Origin: Polynucleobacter ibericus
GTDB lineage: Bacteria > Pseudomonadota > Gammaproteobacteria > Burkholderiales > Burkholderiaceae
Reading direction: 5' to 3'
NCBI RefSeq assembly: GCF_018687955.1
Contig: NZ_CP061309.1
Span: 124,001-188,000, forward strand
DNA length: 64,000 bases
Below the pieces are notes generated by a model. That model had not been told where the DNA came from. It saw only the letters and a program-made list of their open reading frames with translations, and ran no database searches. Each line of letters opens with the position of its first letter. Positions within the stretch are counted from its first letter, which is position 1. This document shows, piece by piece, positions 402 through 35,704 of the stretch. The position numbers were made by a program, and so were the translations under genes.

Positions 402-1262
402 ATGCCAACTTTTAATGTATGCAAAATTGCGATAAACGATTTTCATCATTTATTTGATGATGTGGCCTTATCTGTTGCCGCTTCGTTGAGAGATCTGGGA
501 TATGAGTGCAGTATGACTGTCAACGACATGCGACCAGATGCAATCAATATCTTGATTGGCTCCATTATGTTTAACGACATGCTCATTTCCAGCCAGCTAA
601 CGCAGCCCTATATCGTTTATCAAATGGAAATTTTGGATGATCATCAAGGACATCTAAAAAATTACCCAAAGTATTTAGACTTTTTATCTAGAGCATTATC
701 TGTTTGGGATTATTCACCTAAGAATTTTAAATACCTCAAATCAAAAGGGCTTAAAAATTTAGCCTATGTTCCTCCTGGCTATCACGCTGTTTGTGAAAAG
801 TTTTCCTGGCGGGAGTCACCGCATGAGTTTGATTTTCTATTTATTGGGTCATTGAGTCAACGGCGATCTGAGTTTCTCACATCCCTTATCAATAAAGGGT
901 ATCGAGTGGGGGCGATCACTGAAAATAACGATGCATTTGGTGAAATGCGAGATCAAGTGATTGCAAATTCAAAAATCATTGTTAATGTACATTGCTTTGA
1001 TGATCTTGATATTCTTGAAACCGTGAGGCTTTCCTACCTTCTGACCAATCATGCAGTGGTGATTTCAGAAGCCTCAGATCATGACCCATATCAGGGGGCT
1101 GTTGGATACGCACCGTATGCTGAGTTGGTTGATTATTGTGGCAAGGTTTTGGAGGAAGGTGAAAACTTGAGGCAGCGCTCAAGCAATGGCTATGCTGCAA
1201 TGAGAGCGATAGATATGACTTCATCCATAAGGGCCGCTTTATTGCAGATTGGTATTGTTTAG
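402..1262 (+). CDS. Putative GT-B-type glycosyltransferase
   Basis: This 286-residue protein resembles the nucleotide-sugar-binding half of small GT-B (family 1-like/CgeB-like) glycosyltransferases. Support comes from PPGY at 124-127, FIGS at 148-151 followed by two arginines at 154-155 (the typical start of the second Rossmann domain), IVNVH at 193-197, and Glu206/Arg209 before VVISE at 219-223, which resembles the donor-sugar E...R...SE pattern. No membrane segment or signal peptide is visible, so it should be cytoplasmic. Donor and acceptor are unknown. It stands alone between tRNA-Thr and a convergent transporter gene, with no surface-polysaccharide genes nearby. The family call is moderately sure; the function is not. 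Confidence 0.6.
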   Translation: MPTFNVCKIAINDFHHLFDDVALSVAASLRDLGYECSMTVNDMRPDAINILIGSIMFNDMLISSQLTQPYIVYQMEILDDHQGHLKNYPKYLDFLSRALSVWDYSPKNFKYLKSKGLKNLAYVPPGYHAVCEKFSWRESPHEFDFLFIGSLSQRRSEFLTSLINKGYRVGAITENNDAFGEMRDQVIANSKIIVNVHCFDDLDILETVRLSYLLTNHAVVISEASDHDPYQGAVGYAPYAELVDYCGKVLEEGENLRQRSSNGYAAMRAIDMTSSIRAALLQIGIV

Positions 1263-1267
1263 CTAAT

Positions 1268-2590
1268 CTACTTTATAAGTGATGTGCCGCTAGTTTCTGG
1301 CAGATATTTAATGGCTATTAATGCGCTAATGGCTAAAAAGATGCTTGGATACCAGAGTCCAGCAATGCTATTCCCCCAATATTGATTTATCCAGGTAACA
1401 ATAAAAGGGAGAAGTCCACCAATCCAGCCAGCTGCTAAATTATGAGGTAGTGTGGCTGCACTGTTCCTAGATTTGGCCGGAAATAATTCTGCAATTAGTG
1501 CTGTTTGTGGCCCTACGACTAAAGCCAGTATGCCAGATAGCCCAATTAAGATGATTGCAATCACCATTACTGATGAAGGATGATTTGCTCTGGCGCCGAT
1601 GGCGGCTATCTCAAGCAAATAAAACGCCGGCAATATTAATAAAGCCCCCAGTATTAAGCCGCTAAGAACAATTTTTCTTCTCCCAAACTTATCAGAGAGC
1701 CAGCCGGAAAAAATAGTCATGGGCAAGAGACTGAGTGTGGCGTAGATATTTAATTGATCAACCAGTTTTGCGGGAACCTGCACTGTAGCTTTTAAGAAGA
1801 TGGATGTGTAAACCTGTACACAGAAAAATAAAATTGCCCCACTTGAAGAAACGCAAAGAAAAAGTAAGAACATTCTTTTTCTAATTTCGGGGTCCTTAAA
1901 ATTATTAATCAATTGGGATTCTGTCTCTTGCCCTTTTTTTATTAACTCTAAAAAAACAGGCGTCTCCTCTAAAGCCATACGCGCCTTAAAGGCGATCAAT
2001 AACAATATGAGGGAGACCCAGAACGGTACTCGCCAACCCCAGGCTAGAAATTCTTCGGGTGACAGATGGCCTCGGAGTAAAGCAATTTGTAGGGTAGAAA
2101 ACAAAATACCAAGCGGACCCATCAGCTGTAGAAAGCTAGTCTTAAATCCCCTGTAATCGCTTCCAGCATGCTCTGTAAGGTAAACGGCGCTGCCGCCAAT
2201 TTCACCGCCAGCAGAAAGTCCCTGAAGGAGTCGTAGGCTTACAAGCAGGATTGGCGCCCAAATCCCTGCCTGAGCATAAGTTGGCAAAAAGCCCACGCAA
2301 ACAGTTGCAACCCCCATCAGCGCAATGGTGATCATGAAGACAGGTTTACGACCGATGCGATCACCCATAGAGCCAAAGAGAGCGGCTCCAATGGGTCTGA
2401 CTACCATTCCAACGCCGAAAGTCGCTAGGCTCGCCAAAAGGGCTGTATTAGGGTCTGAGGAGGGAAAGAAGAGTGGGGCAAAAACTACCGCCAACGTGGC
2501 AAATGTTAGGAAGTCATACCACTCTAAAAACGTGCCAAAGCAGGCTGCAATAGCTACTTTTCGATAGGAGTGTGAATTCTGTTTTTGCAT
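1268..2590 (-). CDS. MFS transporter, metabolite:H+ symporter (MHS) type
   Basis: A 440-residue polytopic inner-membrane protein with about 12 hydrophobic segments. FLEWYDF at 21-27 in helix 1, RPIG at 65-68, and the loop 2-3 signature GDRIGRKP at 76-83 are typical of the MHS branch (ProP, KgtP, ShiA relatives). These import organic acids, betaines or similar solutes with protons. The loop between helices 6 and 7 is charged, as expected. The substrate cannot be read from sequence. It is transcribed alone, convergent with the glycosyltransferase gene and divergent from the phasin gene. Confidence 0.85.
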   Translation of the reverse strand: MQKQNSHSYRKVAIAACFGTFLEWYDFLTFATLAVVFAPLFFPSSDPNTALLASLATFGVGMVVRPIGAALFGSMGDRIGRKPVFMITIALMGVATVCVGFLPTYAQAGIWAPILLVSLRLLQGLSAGGEIGGSAVYLTEHAGSDYRGFKTSFLQLMGPLGILFSTLQIALLRGHLSPEEFLAWGWRVPFWVSLILLLIAFKARMALEETPVFLELIKKGQETESQLINNFKDPEIRKRMFLLFLCVSSSGAILFFCVQVYTSIFLKATVQVPAKLVDQLNIYATLSLLPMTIFSGWLSDKFGRRKIVLSGLILGALLILPAFYLLEIAAIGARANHPSSVMVIAIILIGLSGILALVVGPQTALIAELFPAKSRNSAATLPHNLAAGWIGGLLPFIVTWINQYWGNSIAGLWYPSIFLAISALIAIKYLPETSGTSLIK

Positions 2591-28342: not shown

Positions 28343-28354
28343 CCTTTGTCGCGA

Positions 28355-28984
28355 ATGTCCCCGATAGATCGCCTTATTCTGGAGTTTGATACTGCCCTTA
28401 GGTCGGTAGTTGGTGGTGCAAATGCGCAAAGACCTACTCCAGGTTCTGATGCTGGGGGAAATACTGGACTGGATGCGTCGGAACGTAAACATGCCGCAGG
28501 CCTCATGCGTGTAAATCACGTAGGAGAAGTTTGTGCACAAGCGCTTTACCAATCGCAAAAATTAGTCGCTAGAAATTCAGAAATTCAGGAAATGCTCGAT
28601 CACTCTGGTCAAGAAGAAATGGATCATCTTGCATGGTGCGAAACTCGACTACATGAGTTGGGCTCCCACACTAGTTATCTCAATCCAATTTGGTATGCGG
28701 GATCCTTTGCAATCGGCTTGGCAGCAGGCTTAGCGGGTGATAAGTGGAGTTTAGGTTTTGTCGCTGAAACTGAAAAGCAAGTTGAGAATCATCTAGAAAG
28801 TCATCTCAAAAATTTACCCAAAGATGATCAACGTTCACGTGCAATTGTTGATCAAATGCGCCTAGATGAAATTGCTCACGGACAAGCTGCAAAAAATGCT
28901 GGTGGTGTCAATTTACCTGAACCAGTTCAAAAAATAATGCAAGCTATGTCTAGGGTGATGACCACCACTGCTTACAAAATTTAA
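28355..28984 (+). CDS. coq7: Coq7-type 2-polyprenyl-3-methyl-6-methoxy-1,4-benzoquinone monooxygenase
   Basis: A diiron carboxylate enzyme that hydroxylates the ubiquinone ring at C6, replacing UbiF in many bacteria. Diiron motifs are in [20 protein letters not shown] (ExxH), the [12 protein letters not shown] segment and DEIAHGQAA (ExxH). From the ATG at 28355 it has 209 residues; a TTG three codons earlier is open. It starts 12 bases after bioB and may share its transcript. Confidence 0.94.
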
Positions 28985-29050
28985 AACGAAAATCCGTTTT
29001 AAATTAAATAATCTCTTTCTAAATAATTTTTTGATATATTTTTTATCGAT

Positions 29051-29070
29051 TACTGTTTATAAATACAGTA
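29051..29070. promoter_or_regulatory. LexA (SOS) box
   Basis: Half-sites TACTGT and ACAGTA are exactly inverted and separated by 8 A/T bases, fitting the CTGT-N8-ACAG consensus. I count 18 of 20 identities to the classic E. coli LexA consensus. TTGATA at 29031-29036 and several TA-rich hexamers in the box could make a LexA-repressible promoter. The box is 216 bases upstream of mraZ and 66 after the coq7 stop. Confidence 0.75.
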
Positions 29071-29181
29071 TATTTAGGGATTATCTGGCCCAATAGCTAA
29101 GATCTATTCTTAAGTATATTTTCCAAGCCATTGTTTCAAGTAGCTATTTTATTATCACCATTTTCTCAACACATGACGCTA

Positions 29182-29197
29182 AGTGTTTGTAAACACT
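29182..29197. promoter_or_regulatory. 16-bp palindrome upstream of the mraZ promoter
   Basis: AGTGTTT and AAACACT are exact inverted repeats around a central GT. It lies about 33 bases upstream of the -35 box, where an activator or second repressor could bind. No T tract follows, so it is not a terminator. The binding protein is unknown. Confidence 0.35.
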
Positions 29198-29229
29198 AGA
29201 GAAATTCCTAAAAAAACTCTCAAAAACAC

Positions 29230-29258
29230 TTGACCCTCTTAGTGTGATCCTCTAAAGT
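29230..29258 (+). promoter_or_regulatory. Candidate sigma70 promoter of the dcw cluster
   Basis: TTGACC (29230-29235) and TAAAGT (29253-29258) are separated by exactly 17 bases. Transcription would start around 29265, giving a leader of about 20 bases before the mraZ ATG at 29286. Confidence 0.6.
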
Positions 29259-29282
29259 GGGAGGAAGTGTGAAAAAGTGGGG
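29258..29282 (+). promoter_or_regulatory. MraZ operator: three TGNGN boxes in 10-bp register
   Basis: TGGGA (29258), TGTGA (29268) and TGGGG (29278) start exactly 10 bases apart. Repeated TGGGN boxes with 5-base spacers are the known MraZ binding pattern in front of mraZ genes. They begin at the end of the -10 box and run over the start site, so binding should repress. The last box also supplies the GGGG that may act as ribosome-binding site. Confidence 0.75.
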
Positions 29283-29285
29283 TAA

Positions 29286-29717
29286 ATGGTGTTTCAAGGT
29301 GCGTCAGCTCTCAATTTAGATGCAAAAGGCCGCATGTCTGTGCCGGCTAAGCATCGTGACGCCTTGTTGGTACAGGGCGAGGGCCGAATCACGCTCACAA
29401 AACACCCAGATGGCTGCTTATTGCTGTTTCCAAGGCCAGAGTGGGAAACGTTCAGAGCAAGAGTTGCTCAACTTCCGATGGATGCTCACTGGTGGCGCCG
29501 CATTTTCTTAGGTAATGCAGCAGAGATGGATTTGGACAGTGCTGGTCGCGTACTGGTGGGTCCAGAATTACGTGCAGCAGCCGGAATTGAAAAAGAAGTG
29601 ATTTTGCTCGGTATGGGTAGTCACTTGGAATTGTGGGATGCGGCAACATATGCTGCAAAAGAACAGGCTGCTATTGCACAAGGCATGCCTGAAGCACTCA
29701 AGCAATTTAATTTTTGA
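29286..29717 (+). CDS. mraZ: Transcriptional regulator MraZ
   Basis: A 143-residue protein with two AbrB/SpoVT-like halves, with signatures [15 protein letters not shown] near the start and [14 protein letters not shown] in the second half. It forms rings that bind TGGGN repeats and represses the division and cell-wall cluster. It is the first gene of the dcw cluster; three matching boxes overlap its own promoter. rsmH follows after 12 bases. In other species RsmH counteracts MraZ. Confidence 0.97.
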
Positions 29718-29729
29718 TGACAGGGTGCC

Positions 29730-30680
29730 ATGAACATAACTCATCGCCCAGTGTTACTGGCCGAGGCGGTGACGGCGCTAGTTGGCGGTCCGCTGATTCA
29801 AAATCAAAATGCAACAAACAATATTTTGGTGATCGATGGAACCTTTGGGCGCGGTGGACACACGCAAGCATTGCTCAAGGAATTGAATCCTTTGGCGCGA
29901 ATGATTTCGTTCGACAAGGATTTAGATGCGATTGCAGTGGCGCAAAAAATCAACGATCCACGATTAAAGATCGTACACGACAGTTTCGCGCAGATGGACG
30001 AGTATGCGGAAGCGGAATCAGTCGATGGAATTTTGTTGGACTTGGGTATCAGCTCACCTCAGGTGGACGAAGCGCATCGGGGATTTTCTTTTCGTCGCGA
30101 AGGTCCGCTCGATATGCGTATGAATACCGATCATGGTTTGACAGCGGCAGAGTGGTTGGAGCAGGCGGCACCGGAGGAAATCACGCGCGTGATTAAGACT
30201 TACGGAGAAGAGCGCTTTGCATTTCAGATTGCGAAAGCCATTGTGGCTAAGCGCGAAGAAGGCTTGTCCCCAAAAACAACAACCGAGTTGGCAAATCTAG
30301 TGGCGAGCGTCGTGCGCACTCGTGAAGCAGGTCAAGATCCTGCAACTAGAACTTTTCAAGCATTACGTATTTTTATTAACCGAGAGTTAGAGGACTTAGA
30401 GATCGGCTTAAAAGCAGCTTTGAAATTACTAAAACCTGGCGCAAGACTTGCGGTAATTAGTTTTCATTCTTTAGAAGATCGCATTGTGAAGCAGTTTATG
30501 CAAGCACATGCAAAAGTAGAGGTGCCACGTGGCTTACCAGTGCGCGAAAAAGATTTGCCGCAAAGTGCGCTTGAACTGATTGGTCGCATCAAGCCAAGTG
30601 ATGCTGAGGTGTCTGAAAATCCCCGTGCGCGTTCTGCAATCATGCGTGTCGCTGAAAAGCGCACTGGAGTTATTGCATGA
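29730..30680 (+). CDS. rsmH: 16S rRNA (cytosine1402-N4)-methyltransferase
   Basis: RsmH (MraW) methylates N4 of C1402 in the ribosomal P site with SAM. The 316-residue protein shows HRPVLLAE at the start, the SAM loop DGTFGRGGH (36-44), [19 protein letters not shown], and [13 protein letters not shown]. Its last 4 bases overlap ftsL. Confidence 0.97.
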
Positions 30681-30943
30681 ATCGAGCCACTTTAACTCTG
30701 CTCGCATTGCTATTAATTTGCGCTTTATCTCTGGTCGCAGCGCAGCAACGTGCACGTAAGCTGTTTATTCTTCAAGAGCGTGCTCAGATTGAAGAGCGTA
30801 AGTTAAATCAAGAATGGTTACGTTTAGAGTACGAGCAGCGCAATCTTTCTAAATCTGCACGCATTCGTGATGTTGCTCGCAATCAATTACGTATGTCGCC
30901 GATTTCTCCTGAGCGTACTTTGTATTTGAGGGAGGCTAAATGA
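30677..30943 (+). CDS. ftsL: Cell division protein FtsL
   Basis: A small bitopic divisome protein that works with FtsB and FtsQ. It has 88 residues: a short cytoplasmic start, one membrane helix (about 5-22), then a leucine-zipper-like coiled coil and a periplasmic end with [17 protein letters not shown]. Identity rests on size, topology and position between rsmH and ftsI. It overlaps both neighbours by 4 bases (ATGA). Confidence 0.93.
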
Positions 30944-32712
30944 GGCCGGTTGGTTTTTCTACTACGCCAAATTTAGTATTGCGCCTGCCAATGTGGCGGT
31001 CACGCCTGATGTTGTTCCTCTTGTTCTTTGTTTTCATGATGCTATTACTGCGTGCGTTTTGGATTCAAGGCCCAGGCAACGCATTCTATGAAGCTAAAGG
31101 TGTGCGTGGTACTCAGCGTGAACTAGAGTTGCCCGCTAGCCGTGGAAAAATCTTGGATCGAAATGGTCAAGTCATTGCAACTAGCCTAGAGGCTAAATCA
31201 GTTATCGCCTATAACGACACAGTTCCAGATGATTTAGCTGCAGACAAAGTACAAAAGTTAGCAAGTCTTTTGCAAATGAGTGAAGCTGATTTGCGTAAGA
31301 AATTACGCGAAGAGCGTAAGCAGATCTTCTTAAAGCGCCAAGTAGACCCGGCGGTTGCACAGCAAATTAAGCAGTTGGAAATTCCAGGTATTGGCCTAAA
31401 TAATGAGTACCGCCGCTTCTATCCAGAAGGTGAAGCGATGGCTCACGTAGTTGGCTTCACCAACGTAAACGATAAGGGTCAAGAAGGCATGGAGCTTTCT
31501 AGAGAGAAGGATCTTGCCGGTCACCCAGGGCAGAGACGCGTAGTGGTTGATCGTCTCGGGCGCGTTGTTGATGAAATGGCTATTTTGCAGTTGCCGCAAA
31601 ACGGTAAAGATTTAAATCTGTCGATTGATAGCAAGATTCAGTTTTTAGCATACAACGCTGTGAAAGATGCAGTTGAAAAGCATCATGCTAAGGCGGGTGG
31701 TGCTGTAGTGCTTGATACCCAAACTGGTGAGATTCTGGCATTAGCAAACTATCCAAGTTACAACCCGAATGATCGAAGAGTTCTCACGGGCGAGCAATTA
31801 CGTAACCGTGTACTTACTGATACCTTTGAGCCTGGTTCAACTATGAAGCCACTCACCATTGCCATTGCTTTGGAAAAGGGCGCGGTCAAGCCCGAAACTA
31901 ATATGGTCATTGGTGCAAAGTATTTGATTGGTCCAAAACCAATTACTGATACGCACCCTTATGGAAATTTAACGATCTCTCAAATTATTCAAAAATCTAG
32001 CAATATTGGTACCGCAAAGATCGCTATGAATAATCTTTCTGCTGAAGAGATGTGGGATTTCTATACAGCAGTTGGCTTTGGTCAGGCCCCTAAGATTGGC
32101 TTTCCAGGCGCTGTTGCTGGAACGGTTCATCCATTTAAAAAATGGGTGCCCTCCGATCAAGCGCGCATTGCATTCGGCTACGGTATTTCTGCATCACTCT
32201 TTCAGGTGGCGCGTGCTTATACCGTTTTTGCACGTGATGGTGAATTAGTGCCTTTGACAATTGAGCGTAGTCCAGAATTTAAGCCAGGCACTAAAGTACT
32301 CTCTCCTAAAACGGCAATTGAAATGCGCAGCATGATGGAGTCAGTTACCGAGCCAGGCGGAACTGCAATTAAAGCGCAAGCTGAAGGCTTCCGTGTTGGC
32401 GGTAAGACTGGAACAGCTCATAAATTAGTTGGTAAAGGCTACGGTAATAAATACCGTGCTTACTTTGCAGGATTGGCGCCAATTAGCGCACCACGTATTG
32501 TGGTGGCAGTAATGATCGATGAGCCTACTGGCGGAAGCCATTATGGTGGCGATGTAGCTGCACCCGTGTTTTCAACTATTGTGAGCGAAACATTGCATAC
32601 CTTAAATGTTTTGCCAGACAGTAAGGCAAAACAAATGGTATTGCAGGATAAGAATCCACAGGAGATTCAAGCTGCTAATGCGCAGGCTCAACATGTGGTT
32701 TTGAAGCGATGA
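30940..32712 (+). CDS. ftsI: Septal peptidoglycan transpeptidase FtsI (PBP3)
   Basis: A class-B penicillin-binding protein that cross-links septal peptidoglycan with FtsW. The 590-residue protein has a membrane anchor at about 21-41, the non-catalytic domain starting with PASRGKILDRNG, and the transpeptidase with STMK (Ser300-Lys303), SSN (353-355) and KTGT (489-492). The C-terminus carries an extra about 35-residue Gln/Ala-rich tail. It overlaps ftsL and murE by 4 bases each. Confidence 0.98.
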   Translation: MRPVGFSTTPNLVLRLPMWRSRLMLFLLFFVFMMLLLRAFWIQGPGNAFYEAKGVRGTQRELELPASRGKILDRNGQVIATSLEAKSVIAYNDTVPDDLAADKVQKLASLLQMSEADLRKKLREERKQIFLKRQVDPAVAQQIKQLEIPGIGLNNEYRRFYPEGEAMAHVVGFTNVNDKGQEGMELSREKDLAGHPGQRRVVVDRLGRVVDEMAILQLPQNGKDLNLSIDSKIQFLAYNAVKDAVEKHHAKAGGAVVLDTQTGEILALANYPSYNPNDRRVLTGEQLRNRVLTDTFEPGSTMKPLTIAIALEKGAVKPETNMVIGAKYLIGPKPITDTHPYGNLTISQIIQKSSNIGTAKIAMNNLSAEEMWDFYTAVGFGQAPKIGFPGAVAGTVHPFKKWVPSDQARIAFGYGISASLFQVARAYTVFARDGELVPLTIERSPEFKPGTKVLSPKTAIEMRSMMESVTEPGGTAIKAQAEGFRVGGKTGTAHKLVGKGYGNKYRAYFAGLAPISAPRIVVAVMIDEPTGGSHYGGDVAAPVFSTIVSETLHTLNVLPDSKAKQMVLQDKNPQEIQAANAQAQHVVLKR

Positions 32713-34259
32713 GGGTGAACTTGAAAATAGACACCAATCAGCTGATTGACCACCTACACACCCTAGCGAATTCTTCCGCAAAAGTGTGCGCGGATAGTCG
32801 CCAGATTCAGCCTGGCGATATCTTTTTTGCATACCCAGTTGGTCATGGCAATGCTTTGCGTGATGGGCGTCAGTTTATTAGTACTGCTTTGAAGAGTGGT
32901 GCAGCTGCCGTGGTGTTTGATTCAGCTGGCATGGATAATCAATTCGAGGATCATCCACAATGTTTTGCAGTTGAAAATCTTGCTACAAAAGCTGGTAATT
33001 TGTGCGCGCAATGGTATGGCTACCCTAGTAAAGCATTAAAAATTATTGGCGTGACTGGCACTAATGGCAAAACCAGTATTACGCAGTGGTTGGCTCAAGC
33101 ATTAGATACAAGTAATCATCGCACTGCAGTGCTAGGAACTTTGGGCACCGGCTTTCCGGGTGCGCTAGTACAAACCGGCTATACCACCCCAGACGCCCCT
33201 AAATTGCAGACTCAGTTGGCAGAGTTGCTTAACTCCGGAGCAAAACAAGTGGCGATGGAAGTATCTTCGCATGCATTGCATCAAGATCGTGTTGCTGGAA
33301 TTGAATTTAATTGTGCGGTGTTCACCAATTTAAGCCAGGATCATTTGGATTACCACGGCAGTATGGCTGATTACGCTGAGGCAAAGGCGAGGTTGTTTCA
33401 GCAGACCAGTCTTAAGCATGCGGTTATTAATTTAGATGATGCATTTGGTCGTGAGTTAGCCATGAATTTACTGGCGAAAGAGAGTTTGAAGGTCTGGGCG
33501 TATGCATTGTCCCAATCTGCTTTTCAAGGCTTCGAAAAATTTGGAGATCGATTGCAGCGCATTTACGCAAAAGATACTGTGCTGAGTGGTTTTGGCTTCG
33601 ACTCCAACTTTGTTTGCGACGGGGTAGGTAGTAATCAATTGCATATTCCATTAGTGGGTGAATTTAATTTAAGCAATGCTCTGGCAGTCTGGGCAGTATT
33701 GCTTACCCAAGGAATTTATTCTGAAGATGCTGCCAAAAAAGTGAGTCAATTAAACCCAGTGCTTGGCCGCATGGAACTCATTCGTTTAGGTAAATCTCAA
33801 AAGACTGATGCTTTGTTAGCAGTTGTAGATTACGCACACACTCCCGATGCTTTAGAGAAAACTCTCCAGGCACTGCGTCCTATAGCCAAACAACGTGGTG
33901 GAAAAGTATGGTGTGTATTTGGTTGTGGTGGCGATCGTGATACTGGTAAACGTGCATTGATGGGTGCTGTTGCCGAACGCAATGCCGATCAAGTTCTAAT
34001 CACGAGCGATAATCCTCGCTCTGAAGATCCACAAGCCATTATGCAGATGATTCGCAGTGGTATGAAAGCGGATGCACAGAATATTCAAATAATTGCTGAC
34101 CGTGCAGCAGCCATTATGGCTGCAATTCGTCACGCCAATGTATGCGACATTGTCTTAGTTGCCGGCAAGGGTCATGAAACTACGCAAGAGATTAACGGTA
34201 AAAAGTTTGATTTCTCTGACCAAGAGCATATTCGTCTGGCTGCTGGAGGGATCGTCTGA
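32709..34259 (+). CDS. murE: UDP-MurNAc-L-Ala-D-Glu:meso-diaminopimelate ligase
   Basis: It adds the third residue to the peptidoglycan stem peptide. The 516-residue Mur ligase has GTNGKT (117-122) for ATP and DNPRSEDP, the motif that selects meso-diaminopimelate rather than lysine, as expected for a Gram-negative. The ATG overlaps the ftsI stop (ATGA). Confidence 0.97.
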   Translation: MRVNLKIDTNQLIDHLHTLANSSAKVCADSRQIQPGDIFFAYPVGHGNALRDGRQFISTALKSGAAAVVFDSAGMDNQFEDHPQCFAVENLATKAGNLCAQWYGYPSKALKIIGVTGTNGKTSITQWLAQALDTSNHRTAVLGTLGTGFPGALVQTGYTTPDAPKLQTQLAELLNSGAKQVAMEVSSHALHQDRVAGIEFNCAVFTNLSQDHLDYHGSMADYAEAKARLFQQTSLKHAVINLDDAFGRELAMNLLAKESLKVWAYALSQSAFQGFEKFGDRLQRIYAKDTVLSGFGFDSNFVCDGVGSNQLHIPLVGEFNLSNALAVWAVLLTQGIYSEDAAKKVSQLNPVLGRMELIRLGKSQKTDALLAVVDYAHTPDALEKTLQALRPIAKQRGGKVWCVFGCGGDRDTGKRALMGAVAERNADQVLITSDNPRSEDPQAIMQMIRSGMKADAQNIQIIADRAAAIMAAIRHANVCDIVLVAGKGHETTQEINGKKFDFSDQEHIRLAAGGIV

Positions 34260-35704
34260 TGACTATTATGACAAGTCTTGCGCAAGCGCAGGCTATGTTG
34301 CCTGGAAGTACATTGGTGAATACTTCCGAAGAAATTGCTCAAGAAATATTGATTTCTCGCGTTGGTACGGATAGTCGTCAGGTCGATCGTAATGAATTAT
34401 TTGTTGCGCTCGTTGGCGATCGTTTTGATGCCCATGACTTTTTATCTGATGTAGCTAGCGCTGGTGCTGGTGCCGCCTTAATAAGCAGCGAAGATAAGTG
34501 TCCTGCAGACTTACCTGCCATTTGTGTTTCAAATACTCGTGTTGGCTTGGGAAATTTAGCAAAAGCATGGCGTACAAATCATCCCATTCCTTTGGCGTTG
34601 GTTACTGGTAGTAACGGTAAAACCACTGTTAAAGAGATGATTGCCTCTATATTTAAGGCTGCAGTTGGTGAGCAGCATACCTTGGTAACCAAAGGCAATC
34701 TCAATAATGACATTGGTTTGCCATTAACGCTCTTGAAGTTGCGTTCTACCGATCGTCTTGCAGTGGTTGAGCTTGGTATGAATCATCCCGGGGAAACAGC
34801 ACAGTTAGCTGCCATTGCCCAAGCGAATATTGCATTAATTAATAATGCCCAACGCGAACATCAAGAATTTATGGCGACCGTTGCGGCTGTAGCAGAAGAG
34901 CATTCAGATGCAATTCGCGCTTTGCCAAGCGATGGAATCGCAGTATTCCCAGCAGATTCAGAGTTTGAAAACGTTTGGCGTCAGGCCGCTGCCGGACGAA
35001 AAGTTATTGATTTTGTACTGACATCCGCGCAGACCAAAGCTTCAGCCTCAGTAACGGGCAGCTTATTAAGCAATGGATTGGTAAAAATACAAACAGAACA
35101 AGGAGCTATCGAAGTCCAGTTAAATACTTTGGGTAGTCACAATGTTCGTAATGCTTTAGCGGCAAGTGCTGTAGGTATTGCAGCTGGCGTAAGCCTTGAA
35201 AAAATCAAAGAGGGTCTTGAGTCTTTTGCGCCAGTAAACGGGCGTATGCAAGCAAAGGTGATGGATTCAAATCGCACCTTAATTGACGATAGCTATAACG
35301 CTAACCCTGATTCTGTACGAGCTGCGATTGATGCACTCAAGCAATCCGGTAATTTATCGTGGTTGATCTTAGGTGATATGGGTGAAGTTGGTAATCAGGG
35401 TCCAGAATTTCATCATGAAGTCGGCGCTTATGCTGCAGAGCAGGGAATCTCAAAGCTATTTGCTTTGGGTGAGCAATGCCAATTTGCCTTGCAGGGATTT
35501 AATAAAGCGTCTTGTGATAACGCGACTGTATCTAGCGCAATACATTTTTCCGATATGGATAGCCTAATCGCAAAACTAAAAGATACATTACTCGCACAGT
35601 CTAGTAGCAGTCAGCATTTAAATATTTTGGTTAAGGGTTCGCGATTTATGCGCATGGAGCGTGTAGTACAGGCCTTATTAGAGGAGGCTAAAACATGCTC
35701 TTAA
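34259..35704 (+). CDS. murF: UDP-MurNAc-tripeptide:D-Ala-D-Ala ligase
   Basis: It adds D-Ala-D-Ala to complete the pentapeptide. The 481-residue protein has the ATP loop TGSNGKTT (about 116-123), [14 protein letters not shown] and [11 protein letters not shown], all MurF-typical. The start shares one base with the murE stop (TGATG). Confidence 0.97.

Follow-up and report, generated by a model that had tools for sequence, protein, structure and literature searches.

A perfect LexA box at the head of the division and cell-wall gene cluster in a clade of Polynucleobacter

RESULTS

A perfect LexA box lies between coq7 and mraZ

The stretch of DNA analyzed here (64,000 nucleotides, hereafter the window) belongs to a 1.90-Mb single contig, which was the genome searched, and it contains a standard dcw cluster with mraZ at its head and the downstream genes following on the same strand (Table 1). 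In the region between mraZ and coq7, the identities of which were both confirmed by Pfam, we found the sequence TACTGTTTATAAATACAGTA, in which both the TACTGT and the ACAGTA half-site are perfect. The box is located 66 bp 3′ of the coq7 stop codon and 215 bp 5′ of the mraZ ATG. An earlier note on this DNA had described a near-perfect LexA box at this position; the sequence is exactly as it was given there, and the wording understated the match. Downstream of the box, the normal promoter of the cluster and the MraZ repeats are intact.

Table 1. Positions of genes and of observed or predicted elements around the box, numbered from the first nucleotide of the window.
Feature	Positions	Strand	Evidence or remark
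coq7	28346..28984	+	Pfam
Two T-tracts, possible UP-element-like contacts	29029..29031 and ~29039..29043	+	Fewer changes than surroundings
Putative LexA operator, TACTGT-TTATAAAT-ACAGTA	29051..29070	.	Perfect; common to recA and umuDC; kept in 104/104 clade members
Inferred -10 element TATATT, overlapping right end of box	29069..29074	+	81/106 sequences
Inferred transcription start region, A29080, ATTAT	29080..29084	+	ATTAT conserved 6 nt after -10
Leader block A (AATAGCTAAGATCTATTCTTAAGTATATTTTCCAAGCCATTGTTTC...), dcw control DNA that probably predates the box	29092..29150	+	107-species alignment; recognizable in box-less congeners
Family-wide upstream motif CGCTAAGTgtTTGTaa	29178..29199	.	Alignment; counterpart in other Burkholderiaceae
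Main mraZ/dcw promoter, TTGACC-N17-TAAAGT	29230..29258	+	Promoter scan; near-invariant in alignment
MraZ operator repeats, 10-bp period (GTGGG/GTGTG/GTGGG)	29257..29282	+	Invariant in genus
mraZ, first dcw gene	29286..29717	+	Pfam PF02381
rsmH/mraW, ftsL, ftsI, murE, murF (next dcw genes)	29730..35704	+	Pfam, ORF positions

The mraZ site is one of few strong LexA sites

Within the window, the mraZ site is the only perfect match to the box, and the 24 matches with up to three mismatches compare with 19.3 expected, so that the weaker matches carry no meaning. Across the whole genome, the perfect pattern TACTGT-N8-ACAGTA occurred three times, the other two sites being those of umuDC and recA, while the reversed control pattern did not occur at all. 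When up to two mismatches were allowed, the real pattern gave 52 matches, below the 71 of the control; only the perfect sites thus stand out, and the weak boxes were set aside for want of enrichment. The lexA gene itself carries a weaker box, TACTGGGATTGTATACAGCA, directly before its start. The host LexA, which is 53% identical to the E. coli protein, has an AG cleavage site and an E. coli-type recognition helix, SxNAAEEHL (SANAAEEHLRAL). Genomes of congeners (n = 61) held about three perfect boxes each, and the reversed control was nearly absent from them. Together, the genus-wide box counts, the recognition helix, and the sites at core SOS genes identify the motif as the LexA motif of the genus. 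As judged from sequence, the mraZ site is one of the few strong LexA sites of the genus, and the box appears to be a functional operator to which LexA is predicted to bind.

The box was gained once and its contact bases are invariant

We compared the intergenic region across more than 130 congeners, assigning them to clades with a tree of MraZ and Coq7. All carriers of the box grouped in a single 104-member clade (local support 0.94), where the box was perfect in 78 members, had one mismatch in 22 and two in 4, and was lost in none; it lay 224 to 245 bp from mraZ on the upstream side. The same intergenic region lacked the box in 29 other congeners, belonging to two Polynucleobacter groups, and in 19 relatives of other genera. 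Such a distribution, complete within one clade and absent outside it, indicates that the box was gained once and then retained. Conservation in relatives, which the earlier note had proposed as a check, was accordingly found at the same place in every member of this clade. Loss of LexA as the cause of the box-less state was rejected, given that every near-complete genome of the genus yielded LexA-family matches. We also searched the genomes of 84,980 species for the exact box with MraZ repeats 185 to 215 bp after it; this returned 65 contigs, all of them labelled Polynucleobacter or Burkholderiaceae/betaproteobacterial metagenome-assembled genomes (MAGs), and the named relatives with this arrangement were Polynucleobacter species.

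The spacing between the start of the box and the mraZ ATG was exactly 235 bp in 73 of 106 sequences and ranged from 219 to 245 bp, with the lowest value coming from a genome in which mraZ is broken. On the clade tree, the number of parsimony changes per site was 0 at ACTG and ACAG, 1.6 in the half-sites, 7.5 in the core, and 24 across the upstream 20 bp (core versus half-sites, permutation p = 0.002). The lack of any change at ACTG/ACAG within DNA that otherwise changes fast is the signature of protein contact, and not of general conservation.

In a separate observation, a congener with a 1.6-Mb genome (G032, locus L185) has mraZ split in two frames and a degraded box, TATTGGACATAAATACAGTA, and a pattern search of its genome found no perfect LexA box. 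This state is as expected for a decaying genome of the endosymbiont type.

Promoter-like elements are conserved on one side of the box

The TATATT element corresponds to positions 19 to 24 counted from the start of the box and thus runs into its right flank. Its sites changed 1 to 6 times each on the clade tree (1 to 3 times for the right-flank positions alone), compared to 17 to 33 times at the mirrored positions on the left. Because TATATT is conserved on the right without a similarly conserved mirror image on the left, the predicted promoter would point rightward, facing mraZ. The umuDC site displays the identical geometry of box and TATATT, and the E. coli recA box likewise ends in a -10 element. 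Upstream, the two T-tracts underwent 10 to 18 changes per site, versus an average of 24 in this DNA. At a spacing of 16 to 18 bp, matches to a -35 hexamer were no better than in shuffled sequence. Overall, we infer that the box overlaps a rightward promoter that LexA would keep shut, with a start near 29080.

The L109-L114 subclade departs from this pattern: its box is degraded at the outer bases, and so is its -10 element (TATATT to GCTTTT or TCTTTT), while ACTG/ACAG was kept. Control there may be weaker or altered.

The leader predates the box

Between the box and mraZ, we found no intrinsic terminator and no match to an Rfam family, and consensus folding of the leader gave almost no covariation on either strand. 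The earlier note had seen no protein-coding ORF in this interval, and indeed none of note is present: No small ORF was conserved among 106 species, and the commonest ATG ORF after the box, 8 amino acids long and found in 46 of the 106, lacks a ribosome-binding site here. An SOS-induced small peptide of the SidA/YneA kind was rejected as a candidate product, since no conserved short ORF with a ribosome-binding site follows the box. The conserved blocks of the leader also occur in box-less congeners, so their conservation predates the box. This speaks against a small RNA of its own; the blocks are most readily taken as pre-existing dcw control DNA. With an older leader that holds no terminator, Rfam family, covarying fold, or small ORF, the simplest product of the predicted promoter would be a long-leader mraZ/dcw mRNA.

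Part of this control DNA is shared more widely: other Burkholderiaceae (including L199-L226) have [CT]AAGTC(A/T)TTGTTCT at the corresponding position upstream of the mraZ promoter. In the present genome, the family-wide motif holds a perfect palindrome, AGTGTTTGTAAACACT, at 29182-29197; throughout the clade, the motif is now a perfect palindrome that varies symmetrically, as AGTGTTTGTAAACACT or AGTGATTGTAATCACT. A sequence resembling it, CCAAGCCATTGTTTC, is located at ~29123-29137.

DISCUSSION

A probable LexA-controlled second promoter for the cluster

We consider it probable that the box is a LexA operator on a second, rightward promoter (P-SOS) that feeds mraZ and the dcw cluster, with its start site and its induction by damage predicted from sequence features. 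The earlier note had suggested a LexA-controlled second dcw promoter as one role of the box, and this suggestion has gained from the conservation in 104 species, the invariant contact bases, and the -10-like element facing rightward. Counting against P-SOS are the absence of a clear -35 element and the degradation of both the box edge and the -10 element in the L109-L114 subclade. In the undamaged cell, LexA would sit on the operator and keep P-SOS shut, while dcw would be transcribed from its usual MraZ-controlled promoter. Upon damage, RecA would trigger the self-cleavage of LexA and P-SOS would fire, yielding a transcript that would cross a terminator-free leader of ~206 nt into mraZ and the subsequent division and cell-wall genes. 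DNA damage would then probably alter the output of division genes directly in this clade.

What such a transcript would do to division depends on MraZ, which is a near-universal but poorly understood regulator. In E. coli, MraZ represses its own cluster, as related in PMC7761207, and in B. cenocepacia it binds the dcw promoter (PMC7761207); overproduction of MraZ in E. coli leads to severe cell elongation, as summarized in PMC4446571, which cites Eraso 2014. Given this self-repression and elongation, an SOS-driven pulse of MraZ would fit a delay of division, and the most likely result would be that the pulse damps the normal dcw promoter and delays division, along with some extra read-through dcw mRNA. 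The transcript would, however, also carry the downstream division genes, so the sign of the effect could go either way. Provided that the promoter works as proposed, we give division delay an even chance, while a maintained supply of division gene products for recovery is a possible outcome that we rate somewhat lower. More doubtful is a full damage checkpoint acting via MraZ, in which the LexA-shut promoter would raise the repressor of the cluster, stall dcw, and so replace an inhibitor of the SulA type. Although no match to sulA (PF03846) exceeded the cut-off in 61 congeners, this model has hardly any hits elsewhere in the family either, which makes the absence weak evidence of replacement. 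Induction of mraZ by damage is not general, since ciprofloxacin lowered mraZ mRNA in C. glutamicum (PMC5055667).

Alternative readings of the box

One alternative, in our view an unlikely one, is that the LexA-controlled promoter makes a regulatory RNA of ~100 to 190 nt from the leader, and that mraZ is not an SOS gene. The high conservation of the leader and the 200 nt separating the box from mraZ would agree with this, and SOS small RNAs occur in other bacteria. The interval offers neither an intrinsic terminator nor an Rfam match, however, and almost no covariation on either strand, and the occurrence of the same leader blocks in box-less congeners is explained by an older dcw control region. 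The unannotated small RNA that the earlier note had raised as a second role is thus not supported.

Rather improbable, too, is transcriptional interference, whereby SOS firing through the activator motif and the usual promoter would lower net dcw expression. The predicted transcript would indeed cross the 29178-29199 motif, the main promoter, and the MraZ repeats, but it would itself carry mraZ and the cluster. We regard as very improbable that LexA has a structural role or influences the normal dcw promoter remotely, with no promoter at the box. The nearly fixed spacing between box and mraZ and the missing good -35 hexamer would suit such a role, whereas the one-sided conservation of TATATT and ATTAT is not needed by a site that acts from afar, and LexA nearly always represses locally. 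Lastly, while a single site could arise randomly, a functionless chance or relic palindrome is refuted by conservation in 104 of 104 species, with contact bases invariant amid rapidly changing DNA. Compared to these alternatives, the second promoter feeding mraZ and dcw is the reading that we retain.

Relation to known systems

The SOS response usually halts division through a dedicated inhibitor protein. SulA in E. coli, YneA in B. subtilis, and DivS in C. glutamicum resemble the proposed system in that LexA couples damage to division, but they are encoded by inhibitor genes of their own at other places in the genome, whereas here the target would be MraZ together with the division cluster. 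A close likeness is a LexA operator upstream of a mraZ homologue in DNA of a human gut Gram-positive SOS meta-regulon, which was bound by LexA in vitro; its authors propose an SOS-division link and suggest that such links arose repeatedly in that gut Gram-positive clade (PMC3998124). That work used gel shifts with B. subtilis LexA on a metagenomic fragment with the Gram-positive LexA and motif, and without promoter or conservation analysis of the present kind, while our case concerns a betaproteobacterial genus with an E. coli-type motif. In the literature searched, we found no report of a LexA site before mraZ in Proteobacteria or Polynucleobacter, and the statement in the earlier note that SOS control at the head of a dcw cluster has no standard description is thus nearly right, save for this one report of in vitro binding.

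Two other systems share parts of the arrangement. PdhR at the E. coli mraZ/dcw promoter is likewise a global regulator that ties the head of the cluster to physiology, but it senses pyruvate instead of DNA damage, acts at another site, and belongs to another protein family (PMC3265435). PmraBc of Burkholderia cenocepacia, from the same family of bacteria, has MraZ-bound repeats and a strong promoter that yields a polycistronic dcw mRNA, with a longer 5′ UTR and one promoter reported (PMC7761207). Unlike the Polynucleobacter clade, the Burkholderiaceae relatives that we examined have no LexA box.

The SOS response seems to be tied directly to the start of the division cluster in common freshwater bacteria, through a site that shares its perfect LexA sequence with just two others in a small genome. 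Should this hold, it would provide a natural test of the role of MraZ in cells; taken with the Gram-positive example (PMC3998124), it would point to more than one origin of LexA control of mraZ.

Other LexA boxes and their neighbors

Several further LexA boxes were observed next to genes outside the dcw cluster. In two congeners without the mraZ box (G051 and G068), a perfect LexA box precedes the gene for a short Cys-rich protein of ~60 amino acids with one apparent membrane segment (L233, ~1245-1430, minus strand; L236, ~1657-1845, plus strand). The G068 copy had no Pfam match, and the protein could be an SOS effector of that lineage’s own. In G013 and G008 (L239 and L242), a perfect box is found ~100 bp upstream of a gene whose product, a multi-pass membrane protein, appears DUF4407-like by eye; its first 126 amino acids gave no Pfam match over the cut-off. 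In the present genome, a brnT-brnA toxin-antitoxin pair (PF04365, PF14384; L002, 552-1173, minus strand) is divergent from umuDC, and in G065 (L234) the ORF immediately after a LexA box is BrnT-like.
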